Below are positions 34,760 through 39,458 of a stretch of DNA of 64,000 nucleotides, piece by piece. The stretch comes from Rhodoferax fermentans (GTDB lineage Bacteria > Pseudomonadota > Gammaproteobacteria > Burkholderiales > Burkholderiaceae_C). A program made the position numbers and the translations under genes. The notes under the pieces were generated by a model that saw only the letters and a list, made by a program, of their open reading frames with translations, did no database searches and was not told the origin of the DNA. Position 1 is the first letter of the stretch. Each line of letters begins with the position of its first letter. The stretch lies in assembly GCF_002017865.1 (NCBI RefSeq), contig NZ_MTJN01000002.1, forward strand, positions 3,720,001-3,784,000. The letters are read 5' to 3'.

Positions 34760-35335
34760 TCAAGCCCCAGGCCGCTGCTCACCCTGCGAGTGCATCGGCA
34801 ACACCAGGCTTTGACCATAAGCTGGCGCGGCCTGCGGCCAGTCTTGTGCCCGGTCTATACGCTGCACCCCTTGCGCCAGCAGGCTGGCCACCCGGATCAC
34901 CCCGGCATGGGTGACCCAGACCGGCGCAGGATCTGCCAGCAAGGCATCGCGCCAGGCACTGCTCACCCGCGCCATGACATCGGCCAGGCTCTCCATGCCA
35001 CCAAAACGGTGTTGCCAGAAATCAGCTGTCCAGGTCTCAAAGGCCGCCACCGGAATGTCGGCCCAGGGCTGGCCTTCATAACAGCCAAAATTGATCTCAG
35101 CCAACCGGGCATCCGTGATACATGTCACATCCGGCCGAAGCCCTTTGATCGTCTGGGCTAGTAGCTCGCATCTTTGTAGCGGCGACACCCACAACCGTGC
35201 ACCTGGCGGCAAACCCGGCGCCAGGGTCTGCGCCGCCTGCTGGGTGGCGGCCAGATCCGCTGGCACATCCAACGCGCCGTAACACACGCCGGGCGCCACC
35301 AGCGGCTGGGCGTGACGCAGCAACAGCAAGTTCAC
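34760..35335 (-). CDS. cobC: Alpha-ribazole-5'-phosphate phosphatase CobC (histidine phosphatase family)
   Basis: 191 aa. Phosphohistidine motif LLRHAQ at the N-terminus (H8), with INFGCYEG and THAGVIR later, as in the phosphoglycerate-mutase-like superfamily. Position directly after cobS (4-bp overlap) supports CobC, which removes the phosphate from alpha-ribazole phosphate or cobalamin phosphate in nucleotide-loop assembly. A degenerate REP copy is translated in frame at about 35131-35169. Confidence 0.85.
   Translation of the reverse strand: MNLLLLRHAQPLVAPGVCYGALDVPADLAATQQAAQTLAPGLPPGARLWVSPLQRCELLAQTIKGLRPDVTCITDARLAEINFGCYEGQPWADIPVAAFETWTADFWQHRFGGMESLADVMARVSSAWRDALLADPAPVWVTHAGVIRVASLLAQGVQRIDRAQDWPQAAPAYGQSLVLPMHSQGEQRPGA
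35131..35169. repeat. REP-like repeat, copy 8 (in frame inside cobC)
   Basis: On the minus strand GAGCTACTAGCCCAGACGAT then CAAAGGGCTTCGGCC follows the order GATAGCTnCTAGCCC ... AAGGGCTnGGCC. It codes for the region LAQTIKGLRP of CobC. Confidence 0.5.
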
Positions 35336-36174
35336 AAACTCACCGCCAGCCCGAGGTAAAACGCCAGTTCACACACCTGCTGGGTGGCACCCAGACAGTC
35401 GCCGGTGAAACCTTGCAGGCGACGCCAGAACCAGCGTGTCATCAGCCCCCAGGCCACCAGGGAGGCCAACAGCCCGTTGGCAAAAGCCAGCAGCAGGCTG
35501 TCTGTCTCCAGGTCAATTGCTATGAAGTCGGTAGCCATCTGCCCATACACAGCAAGGGCCAAGGCCATAAAACACCATAAAAGCCCAATCACCAGCGCAC
35601 CCAGGCTGATCTGGTCGGCCAGCGGCTTGGACTTGGAGGTGGCGGTATTGCCCACATGTGGGAGCAGCCGGATGGTCAGCAACGGCCAGGTGCGCGACAC
35701 CACATGCGCCACAAACAGCGCCACCACCATCAGCGGGCCACTGACGTCGCCCAACAGGCCCAGCAGCGTCACCTTGGAGAGCAACGCCAGCACCACGGTG
35801 ATGGCCCCAAAAGCACCCACGCGCGAGTCCTTCATGATGTCCAGCGCGCGTTGCCGGTCAAGGCTGCCACCCAGGCCATCGGCCACATCGGCCAAACCAT
35901 CCTCATGAAAAGCACCGGTGATGAACACCGAGAGCACCGTGCCCAGCGCCGCCGCCACCAGCGGTGCGGAGCCAGTGGCGGGCAAGGACATCAGCAACCC
36001 AGCAGTCGCTGCGGCCACCAGCCCGCCCACCAGCACCCCCACACCGGGAAAATGCCCGGCACTGGCTCGCAACATGGCCGGGCTGTAACCCACCCAGTCC
36101 GACAAACGCCCGGTGATCGGGATGCGGGTGAAAAACTGCAGGCTCAGCAGGTAGTGGCGGATGAATTGGGTCAT
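35332..36174 (-). CDS. cobS: CobS, adenosylcobinamide-GDP ribazoletransferase (cobalamin synthase)
   Basis: 280 aa, integral inner-membrane enzyme. ATG 36174 (MTQFIRHYLLSLQFFTRIP) fits the family N-terminus; the frame upstream to 36240 is not needed. The FHEDGLADVADGLGG motif holds the metal-binding acidic residues. It joins adenosylcobinamide-GDP and alpha-ribazole (phosphate) to make cobalamin (phosphate). It overlaps cobC by 4 bp. A degenerate REP copy (35516-35574) is translated near residues 205-215. Confidence 0.95.
   Translation of the reverse strand: MTQFIRHYLLSLQFFTRIPITGRLSDWVGYSPAMLRASAGHFPGVGVLVGGLVAAATAGLLMSLPATGSAPLVAAALGTVLSVFITGAFHEDGLADVADGLGGSLDRQRALDIMKDSRVGAFGAITVVLALLSKVTLLGLLGDVSGPLMVVALFVAHVVSRTWPLLTIRLLPHVGNTATSKSKPLADQISLGALVIGLLWCFMALALAVYGQMATDFIAIDLETDSLLLAFANGLLASLVAWGLMTRWFWRRLQGFTGDCLGATQQVCELAFYLGLAVSL
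35516..35574. repeat. REP-like repeat, copy 9 (in frame inside cobS)
   Basis: ATTGCTATGAAGTCGGTAGC, then GCCC and AAGGGCCAAGGCCATAAAA, keep the order and spacing of the repeat. It lies in the coding region of CobS between two membrane helices. Confidence 0.45.
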
Positions 36175-36296
36175 GGCAAAGTCCAAGGTGACCTGAAGTG
36201 AAAAATTGTGCGGCAGTGGCAAAAGCGCAGGCTGTGACACTGACCGTGGTTTAGGTTTGAGCTTCGATGAGCATCATGTCCACCCATGCCAAGGGT

Positions 36297-36371
36297 CGTG
36301 GGTAGGGCGGATGTCGAGGCCGATTTTAAAAAGCGAAGCGTCATGAGGCCTCGGCGTCCGCCCTGCCCGCG
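36297..36371 (+). repeat. Hairpin element A with conserved 25-nt loop
   Basis: Arms 36297-36321 and 36347-36371 pair over all 25 positions if four G-T(U) wobbles are allowed in plus-strand sense. The loop 36322-36346 (begins GATTTTAAAAAGCG, ends CGTCATGA) is identical, in reverse orientation, to the loop of element B. The stem sequence differs from that of B. Confidence 0.85.
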
Positions 36372-36440
36372 GCGCGGCTGATGCCACAGGTTGATTGTTG
36401 GTATTTCTGCTTCCGAAAAGACACATACCCTCAGCACGCG

Positions 36441-36523
36441 CAGGCGGGGACAGGCTCAAGGCCCGGGCCTCATGACGCTTCGCTTTTTAAAATCGGCCCA
36501 AACCTCGAGCCCATCCCCGCCTG
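36441..36523 (-). repeat. Hairpin element B, inverted copy with the same 25-nt loop
   Basis: Arms 36441-36469 and 36495-36523 pair over all 29 positions when read on the minus strand with six G-U wobbles; on the plus strand the same positions would be A-C mismatches. The loop 36470-36494 is the exact reverse complement of the element A loop. The two elements thus share loop and architecture but not stem sequence. Confidence 0.85.
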
Positions 36524-36611: not shown

Positions 36612-37700
36612 TCACACCTTGGCGGTGGGTTTGTTCTCCTGCTCGGCCACACCGGCCGATGCAAAACTCGCCATCTCGCGCAACATGGTGCAAGCCGACT
36701 GCAGTAGCGGCCAGGCCAGCGCACCGCCCGAGCCTTCACCCAGACGCAGACCCAGGTCCAGCAAAGCCTGCACACCCAGGTGCTGCAGCATGAACTCATG
36801 GCCGCGCTCACCGGATCGGTGGGCAAACACACAACGCTGCAACACCAGTGGCTGCAAGGCATGGGCCACCAGGATCGAACTGGTGGCAATGAAGCCGTCC
36901 ACCACCACCACCCGGCGCTCGTGCGCAGCCTGCATCACCGCACCCACCATCGTGGCAATCTCCAGCCCGCCAATAGCGGCCAGCACTTCCAGCGGTTCGG
37001 TCACATCGGCGTGGCGCGTCAACACCTCACGCAGCACCGCTGCCTTGCGTTGCACCGCCGGGGCGTCCAGGCCGGTGCCAGCACCGGTGCAGACATCGAT
37101 GTCCAGCCCGGTCAGGCGCGCGAGCAACAGCGACGCGGCTGAGGTGTTGCCAATGCCCATTTCACCGAGCAACACCGCGTTGCCGGGCAGGCTCTTGACG
37201 ATGTCCATGCCGTTTTGCAGGGCCTGTTTGCACTGGGCGATGGTCATGGCGGGCAACACCGAAGCATCCGCGGTGCCACCTTCGGCACCCGCCACCTTAC
37301 GCACCATCAAGCCCGGGCGTTGTGCGCCTGAGGGCAAACCGGCCAGAAAGTCGTGGTCCACACCACAGTCGACCACATTGAGCGCGATGCCGTTTTGTTT
37401 AGAAAACACGCTCACCGCTGCGCCACCGGCCAGGAAGTTCTCGACCATCTGCCAGCTCACCTCTTTGGGGAAAGCCGACACACCACGTGCCACCAGACCG
37501 TGGTCGGCGGCAAACACCACCATCTGCGGCTCGGCCAACACCGGGTCGGTCGTATCCAGTATCTGACCGATCTTGAGCGCCAGATCTTCGATGCGGCCCA
37601 AGGAGCCCAGTGGCTTGGTTTTGTTGTTGATTTTGGCCTGCAGTGCAGTCGTCAGAGCAGGCGAAGAGATGTCCGTCAGGACGGGAAGAGTGGTATTCAA
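36612..37700 (-). CDS. cobT: CobT, nicotinate-nucleotide--dimethylbenzimidazole phosphoribosyltransferase
   Basis: 362 aa from TTG 37700, which is preceded by GGGGA at 5 bp; the open frame up to 37754 would run into the riboswitch. KTKPLGSLG at the N-terminus, GEMGIGNTSAA and the catalytic Glu region LGEGSGGA near the C-terminus are typical. It makes alpha-ribazole 5'-phosphate from nicotinate mononucleotide and DMB. First gene after the cobalamin riboswitch (37760-37927), followed by cobS after a 437-bp gap. Confidence 0.95.
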   Translation of the reverse strand: MNTTLPVLTDISSPALTTALQAKINNKTKPLGSLGRIEDLALKIGQILDTTDPVLAEPQMVVFAADHGLVARGVSAFPKEVSWQMVENFLAGGAAVSVFSKQNGIALNVVDCGVDHDFLAGLPSGAQRPGLMVRKVAGAEGGTADASVLPAMTIAQCKQALQNGMDIVKSLPGNAVLLGEMGIGNTSAASLLLARLTGLDIDVCTGAGTGLDAPAVQRKAAVLREVLTRHADVTEPLEVLAAIGGLEIATMVGAVMQAAHERRVVVVDGFIATSSILVAHALQPLVLQRCVFAHRSGERGHEFMLQHLGVQALLDLGLRLGEGSGGALAWPLLQSACTMLREMASFASAGVAEQENKPTAKV

Positions 37701-37759
37701 AGCAGTCCCCTGTGCGTGAATGGTGGAGGCGCTGCCCGGCCTTGCAGCACCCATAACAA

Positions 37760-37927
37760 CATCAGGCCGGTCTTCTGGCTTGGCGTCATCTGCCCCGTCA
37801 CACCTTCCCGGCTTGGCAGCCAGTGGTTATTTGTGAGGGGCATCAGCCTTACAGCGTTGGGCACGCGACGGATTCACACCGTCTTCCCGATTCTCCTGCA
37901 GGCCAATAGCCTGCGGGCACCTGAAGC
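37760..37927 (-). promoter_or_regulatory. Cobalamin riboswitch A (cobT-cobS-cobC)
   Basis: Read on the minus strand: TTCAGGTGCCCGC, GGGAAGACGGTGTGAATCC, CAACGCTGTAAGG, AACCACTGG, GGGAAGG, and the B12 box AAGCCAGAAGACCGGCCTG (37762-37780). These are the conserved blocks of the cobalamin aptamer. It ends about 60 nt before the cobT start. Repression by adenosylcobalamin is expected. Confidence 0.93.
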
Positions 37928-37959
37928 GCAGAATCATAGCAGCCCGCGCAGGCCTGTTT

Positions 37960-39458
37960 TCAGCGCACCAGGCTGTCGAGCGCACCCGGCTCAAAATGGG
38001 TTTCAACAAAGTCGGCCATACGCTCAAACACGGCTTCCAACGTCGGCACCGGGCCACTCAGACGTGCGCCAAACAGCGCCTGTAGCGCCGCCGGATGCTC
38101 CATCAGGCCGTGTAAATAGATGCCCAGCACATTGCCCGCCGCGTTTTGCCAGCCCAGGCCATCGGGCAACACCGCATGCGCCACATCACCGGCCTGGGCC
38201 ATCGCCGGGTGTTGGCTGGTCTGGCCATGGTGGATTTCGTAGCCGGACACCGACACACCCGCCAACGCCGCCCAGGGGTTGGCCGCAGCGCCCGTTTGCT
38301 GGCCCAGCATGTGGGTGGCAAAGGTGCTGTGGGTGTGCTGCACGGTTTTGGCCATGTCGAACTGTGTGACCAGCGGCAGCAGGCCCAGACCTGGTGCGTT
38401 GCCGTCGATGCCGTGGGTGTCCACCAGCGCCTCACCGAGCATCTGCAGCCCGCCACAGACCCCTAACACCGCCCCCCCCGCGCAGCATGTTGCGCCACGG
38501 CGGCATCTAGCCCCTGCATGCGTAACCAGGCCAGGTCGGCGCTGGTGCTTTTTGACCCTGGCAGCACAATCCAGTCAGACGTGCTCAAGCCCGCCAGTTC
38601 GGTGGGAGAGCGCACCCACTTCAGGCGCAAGCCGGGGATGTTCTTGAGCGGCTGGAACTCGTCCAGATTGCTGATGCGCGGGTAAGCGATCACCGCCACC
38701 GTGAGGTTCACCGAACCTTTGGCGACCGAGCGGTCATCAAACACACCGTCTTCCTCGGGCAAGCCGTGTTGCCACCACATCGGCAGCGTGGCCACGGTCG
38801 GGATACCGGTCAGGTCTTGCAGCATCTGAGGGGCTGGCGCCAGCAGGCTGGCGTCGCCACGGAACTTGTTGAGCACAAACCCCCGGAACAGACCACGCTG
38901 TTCGGGCGGCAGCAGCGCCCAGGTGCCGTACAGGTGGGCAAACGCGCCACCGCGGTCGATGTCGGTCACCAGCAGGCAAGCCGCGTTGCAATGCTGCGCC
39001 ACCCGCATGTTGACGATGTCGCTGCCCGAGAGGTTGATTTCGGCCGGTGAGCCAGCGCCCTCGATCACCACCACATCGTTCTCGGCGCGCAGGGCGTCCA
39101 GCGCGGCGGCAATCTGTGGCCAGACTTTCAGGCTGCGCCCGCGCCAGGGCAAAGCGGTCAACTCGGCGCTGACCTCACCCATCAGCACCACCTGGCTGTG
39201 GGTGTCGGCCTCGGGCTTGAGCAACAACGGGTTCATGCGCACGTCGGGCACGGCCTTGGCGGCAAGTGACTGGAAGTACTGGGCGGAACCGATCTCGCCC
39301 TGGCCATTCACCACCCTGGCGTTGTTGCTCATGTTCTGCGCCTTGAACGGCGCCACTTTGAGCCCCTGGCGCGCGTAGTGGCGGCACAGTGCGGTGGCCA
39401 GCCAGCTTTTGCCGGCACCGCTGGTGGTGCCCAGGACCATGATGCATTTGGCGGTCAT
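37960..39458 (-). pseudogene. cobQ: Cobyric acid synthase CobQ (copy 1), frameshifted in a poly-G run
   Basis: The 5' part (38463-39458) has the ATP-binding [18 protein letters not shown] and the dethiobiotin-synthetase-like domain; it stops right after HAARGGRC. The 3' part (37960-38469) resumes in another frame with the glutaminase Cys motif ([10 protein letters not shown]) and YLHGLMEH. The break is at a run of eight G (minus strand; 38472-38479); nine would restore ARGGAVLGVCGG. This may be a sequencing error, a real mutation or slippage. The enzyme amidates four side chains of cobyrinate diamide. It overlaps cobD by 4 bp. Two other homologues are nearby. Confidence 0.88.

Follow-up and report, generated by a model that had tools for sequence, protein, structure and literature searches.

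The two inverted hairpins in the spacer between cobT and cobS of Rhodoferax fermentans, here called elements A and B, are probably copies of a dispersed family of non-autonomous, REP/BIME-like mobile palindromes, present in Rhodoferax and related Burkholderiales, which would fold as single-stranded DNA. An earlier note on the window, i.e. the whole stretch of 64,000 nucleotides analysed here, had left several origins open; out of these the REP-like option fits best, while a hairpin pair belonging to the cobT-cobS message and membership of the attC or IS200 type were not borne out. As the arms can have almost any sequence if one strand folds, and as the tips are replaceable, these appear to be DNA elements and not mRNA switches.

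The coordinates of the two elements and of their neighbours are given in Table 1. Each element carries the same tip on its own strand (25 of 25 nucleotides), and full pairing of the stems needs G-U pairs, found solely on the strand reading GATTTTAAAAAGCG, both as first noticed from the sequence. On this GATTTT... strand the inner 27 bp contain five G-U pairs in A, six in B, and no A-C. The stem of B has the 29 bp originally claimed for it, while that of A has 27 bp and is longer than the 25 bp claimed. The 14-nucleotide core of the tip, with up to two mismatches, is present twice in the window versus 0.11 occurrences expected, and two occurrences were found in none of 100 shuffled windows. Model R1, built from 12 of 17 copies and partly from A and B themselves, detects them in their own genome with E values of 2.1e-18 (A) and 1.2e-17 (B). 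Neither element has an Rfam match at gathering score; the best sub-threshold matches, to animal miRNA models, are far under the cut-offs of these models and were rejected. Directly upstream of cobT the window contains a cobalamin riboswitch (RF00174, 108.7 bits, 37748-37939 on the minus strand, corresponding to L001 2959-3150). For the cobQ gene (37960-39458, minus strand) there are two frames, 38463-39458 and 37960-38469, which overlap and match neighbouring parts (1-322 and 325-471) of one profile, as if split by a frameshift.

Table 1. Elements A and B and neighbouring genes, in positions of the window.
Feature	Position	Strand	Description
Element A	36295..36373	+	Hairpin with 27-bp stem (36295-36321 / 36347-36373) and 25-nt tip
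Tip of A	36322..36346	+	GATTTTAAAAAGCGAAGCGTCATGA, 25 nt
A-B spacer	36374..36440	.	Between inverted hairpins, 3' arms inward
Element B	36441..36523	-	Hairpin with 29-bp stem (36441-36469 / 36495-36523) and 25-nt tip
Tip of B	36470..36494	-	Same as tip of A on its own strand
cobT	36612..37754	-	Nicotinate-nucleotide--dimethylbenzimidazole phosphoribosyltransferase; upstream neighbour of A/B
cobS	35332..36240	-	Adenosylcobinamide-GDP ribazoletransferase; match below curated cut-off; downstream neighbour; start codon uncertain

The search for the loop with complementary arms showed further copies with compensating stems in the own genome and in relatives; neither a lack of other copies nor stems conserved in sequence without compensating changes, the two outcomes which would speak against selection on the fold, was found. 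The exact 25-nucleotide loop occurs in seven stretches, every one from Rhodoferax records, and with up to three mismatches in four of 60 relatives, own genome included. R1 detected in the own genome a second subfamily with a different tip, present mostly as inverted pairs. A second model, R2, is based on 32 copies (alignment A3) of the 36 in alignment A2, which in turn holds 36 of the 42 non-redundant copies; L054, L057, L061 and L063 were omitted from A3, their tip lengths being misaligned. Searches over more than 40 genomes scored 10 to 72 candidates per genome, so that the copy numbers are lower bounds and absences are weak: R1 matches at least 17 of 200 genomes of the GTDB family, and R2 at least 49 of 60 genomes of the Rhodoferax-like genus, at least 8 of 300 genomes of the order, at least 3 of these outside the GTDB family, and at least 6 of 398 genomes of the phylum, all within the family, with the own genome counted in each case. 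Among the 32 good genomes of the genus at least 28 have R2 matches, and the own genome has at least 30 at E<=1e-4, in which both strands of a copy may have been counted. Outside the family, G057 is a clear member by its folding and has a longer tip, the kind of copy missed by the element finder; the copies of G769 are weak, with 19 and 20 of 24 pairs formed and more A-C than G-U, and in G916, which has an R2 match, the element finder detected no copy. Viral contigs gave no match to two tip patterns, and plasmids and phages none to element A, the sole query.

The unit is about 80 nucleotides long; its stem of about 27 bp is capped by a tip in which a small core is conserved. In the 42 non-redundant copies (non-redundant sets drop stems at least 85% identical) pairing per step, counted from the tip, is 88-100% up to bp 26 and 81% at bp 27, then falls to 57-62% at bp 28-29 and to 19-50% further out, i.e. 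the stem has a sharp end. Its sequence is nearly free: in the 32 aligned copies both sides have changed in 26 of the 27 stem pairs, and 93.3% of cells pair over the whole structure. The covariation score, which shared descent of the sequences can inflate, is 0.83 versus 0.21 in shuffles, none of the 500 reaching it, and 0.10-0.16 when the partners are slid by one to three columns. This strong covariation confirms the earlier supposition that a folded, strand-specific structure is maintained. Around a variable inner hairpin, in many copies closed by C-GNA-G, a triloop that is very stable in DNA, the tip has an outer core that reads GATTT / ATGA or GATGT / CTGA. The constancy of GA...TGA in the tip is partly by construction, because the element finder requires it; no such requirement applied to the fourth base and to the one preceding the final TGA, and of 148 copies 115 have T-A there and 28 have G-C. 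A likeness of the internal loop of the tip to K-turn or SECIS motifs was considered and dropped.

The strand which folds can be recognised from its G-U and A-C positions. By a detection rule that handles these two alike, the stems of 94 non-redundant copies contain 187 G-U versus 22 A-C, and those of all 156 copies 362 versus 28. Strong covariation with G-U pairs is the outcome expected of selection on RNA; the genes on both sides of A and B are cobalamin genes, the upstream one, cobT, being itself preceded by a cobalamin riboswitch, and many copies of the family are directly 3' of genes, all of which would suit a hairpin pair acting as RNA in the cobT-cobS message, in regulation, termination or processing. 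This explanation is made very unlikely by the 35 copies embedded in genes, partly related by descent, of which 31 are in type IIG genes (some broken) and four in cobQ. The count is 38 G-U and no A-C for the 14 sense copies, and 77 G-U and three A-C for the 21 antisense copies, so that in the latter the mRNA has the A-C version and is not the molecule kept paired. It is the element's own strand, not the mRNA, which keeps its pairing. Moreover, in each of the 28 adjacent inverted pairs one transcript has just one member in the pairing orientation, and copies are present at loci without any cobalamin relation; with structure and G-U bias kept antisense in genes and at unrelated loci, the idea of a pair dedicated to the cobT-cobS message is not supported. 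The G-U bias is kept by both neighbours of inverted pairs, which speaks against an origin of the bias in the direction of replication. Single-stranded DNA would be the simplest candidate for the folding molecule, in place of which an antisense RNA may act.

Among the inverted pairs, 22 have their 5' arms inward and six, like A and B, their 3' arms inward. The paired tips are identical in half of them (14/28) and have a mean edit distance of 0.71; identity between the two stems is 47%. For tips at different loci of the same genome the mean edit distance is 6.67 (434 comparisons), and none of 5000 within-genome re-pairings (21 pairs, six genomes) was as close as the real pairs. At orthologous loci with stems at least 65% identical the tip class, set by an ad hoc motif rule, differs in 15 of 73 comparisons, a set which omits the type IIG copies and the 36 of 109 comparisons with stems less than 65% identical. 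Thirteen of these comparisons are at the CoA-transferase locus and two at the O-acetylhomoserine sulfhydrylase locus, with no third locus. In G000 and G004, whose cobT genes are 96% identical, the tip class at the CoA-transferase locus differs with stems 83% identical; both tips of the pair have changed in L262/L266 and in L271/L265, and L267 has a pair with one tip of each class. Tips and stems have partly separate histories, the exchange of tips resting on two loci. A second type of pair (L075-L079) keeps short spacer motifs, GGCTGTTGAA and GCGAAC, and has partly complementary outer flanks, TTGGGTG / CACCCAA; such a pair may be one composite unit.

Common tips in adjacent inverted copies could also be accounted for by replication template switching, which, as described in sections of PMC8794818, can build, repair and maintain hairpins with multi-base compensatory changes. 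That perfect palindromes are kept by this process alone, without selection or mobilisation, is however rather unlikely, since it should produce neither an excess of G-U over A-C on the element's own strand, nor equal stem length at unrelated loci, nor a common tip core dispersed over many loci.

No mobilising gene was found among the Y1 transposase loci or among the genes recurring near hairpins, which are neighbours at orthologous loci, regulators presumably of LysR-like type, and the type IIG gene. Y1 transposase matches (PF01797) are present in 16 of the 17 hairpin genomes examined and in 53 of 60 genomes of the genus, and TnpA-REP acts on folded single-stranded DNA palindromes according to parts of PMC8266576; a REP family moved by the RAYT-like Y1 enzyme that most of these genomes carry would agree with both. 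The linked transposase-like gene suggested earlier did not emerge, however, since the element finder detected a hairpin in none of 23 Y1 loci, and two RAYT-like Y1 genes are adjoined by other inverted repeats, AATTAATTGGG...CCCAATTAATT (L097 2204-2232, L098 2166-2244), which look like a different repeat. Nor do the two presences track, with hairpins but no Y1 match in G276 and G034 and Y1 without hairpins in G019, G258 and G263. In the last 12 nucleotides 5' of the stem the GTAG tag is found in 1 of 86 copies versus two in control stretches and the CGTC tag in 7 of 86 versus three, and mobilisation by the Y1 enzyme is accordingly considered unlikely. A tail containing CACC follows the stem in 30 of 86 copies versus three in the control stretch.

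Recombination ends of the attC or IS200/IS605 type have, by analogy, the principle of a strand-specific folded single strand in common with the hairpins. In attC, however, conserved and free parts are reversed relative to the conserved apex and free stem of the hairpins. In the loci read, where part of the genes were annotated, no recombinase was recognised among the hairpin-adjacent genes and no defining end tag was found, the ends not being conserved, and an origin of this type, also proposed in the earlier note, is most improbable.

REPs of the GTAG and CGTC super-families are characterised, in the parts of PMC3733652 dealing with them, as small interspersed palindromes of 20-40 bp marked by a tag, GTAG or CGTC, often inverted dimers, mostly 3' of genes and in some cases inside genes, with a CGTC branch lacking a dedicated transposase. 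The Rhodoferax hairpins resemble REP/BIME in their many dispersed palindromic copies and frequent inverted dimers, and differ in their greater length, in a long stem of free sequence, in having no clear tag and in their exchangeable tips. Because it departs from REPs in tag and length, two of their defining features, the family was not filed as REP despite its similar habits. With the REPIN/RAYT and TnpA-REP systems, as far as portions of PMC3116915 and PMC8266576 describe them, it has in common inverted pairs and a folded single-stranded palindromic substrate, and it is unlike them in that no link to a RAYT was found. The beta-proteobacterial repeat element BRE is reported in part of PMC3110155 as a GC-rich repeat of about 90 bp in Bordetella, Polaromonas, Rhodoferax ferrireducens and other betaproteobacteria, most copies being intergenic and some within coding sequences. 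Size, Rhodoferax host and location are all similar, but BRE is described as tandem arrays of variable number, and the same part of PMC3110155 mentions no hairpin, tip or strand bias. By description, which is how the two were set side by side, BRE and the hairpin family may be the same; the repeat would then be already known and only its structure new. Palindromes are tolerated in frame inside protein genes in the case of the Rickettsia palindromic elements. The hairpins are like these in their in-frame insertion in coding genes, by analogy and not homology, in different bacteria; the Rickettsia elements are mentioned in the part of PMC3733652 cited above. The searches of open-licence papers brought up no account of such a hairpin, of its strand bias or of tip exchange.

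In the own genome elements were detected at eight of ten loci inspected, in spacers and often directly 3' of a gene; the flanking genes are convergent at three of these spacers and divergent at one, genes being taken as the longest open frames. In other genomes, MmeI-like type IIG genes carry copies in frame in two of their linkers. These frames stay open through the hairpins (862-1474 amino acids, some ended by the stretch boundary), and homologues without insert have short linkers at those sites; of the copies that could be assigned to a linker, those in the first are antisense and those in the second sense. The cobQ gene of G005 (L260) likewise stays open through a hairpin copy. The first type IIG linker (L194 894-4235, A4 columns 509-605) contains more repeated-looking peptides, IASEA.QSM and GSDPDFAQQNSGSDP, and looks like a collector of several small elements. 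In two genomes, inverted hairpins separated by about 1340 bp were considered as an autonomous element, which was discarded, as the intervening stretch is part of a type IIG gene.

Occupied and empty sites can be compared at the locus of A and B. Out of 30 cobT loci 18 have cobS within 500 nucleotides; four of these carry the hairpin pair, own genome included, eleven have a gap of 6-75 nucleotides and no hairpin, and three a longer gap and no hairpin, the remaining 12 loci being uninformative, one of them (L121) with a single detected hairpin. The cobT-cobS gap of G277 (L130) contains twice a different repeated palindromic sequence, CAGCGCGCGCTGGGTGTCTGACT.... Elsewhere, alignments revealed a 72-nucleotide difference within a type IIG gene (L250/L306) and a 91-nucleotide difference in the spacer of a CaiB-type CoA-transferase and an acyl-CoA dehydrogenase gene (L287/L279), both family matches being below curated cut-offs. 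The two differences could also be losses, and no fresh transposition was seen among the sites compared.

If A and B are indeed copies of dispersed mobile palindromes, the element's own strand would fold as single-stranded DNA when the chromosome is replicated or repaired, a putative trans-acting nuclease or transposase would recognise the tip together with the stem length and move the unit, and template switching or short-tract gene conversion at the apex would exchange the tips and make them alike. A two-part hairpin, in which the length of the stem matters and its sequence does not, and the tip is a cassette actively transferred by dedicated machinery that opens the apex of the folded strand and copies a tip from elsewhere, with stems inherited by locus and tips spreading through the genome, is quite unlikely. 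With its pairing kept and its sequence free, the family represents a natural experiment on how the cell handles folded single-stranded DNA; its antisense copies within genes allow the folding strand to be told from the mRNA, and it reveals palindromes in frame in type IIG restriction-modification genes. It is also a warning, since strong covariation with G-U pairs, usually taken as proof of an RNA, can stem from a DNA element.
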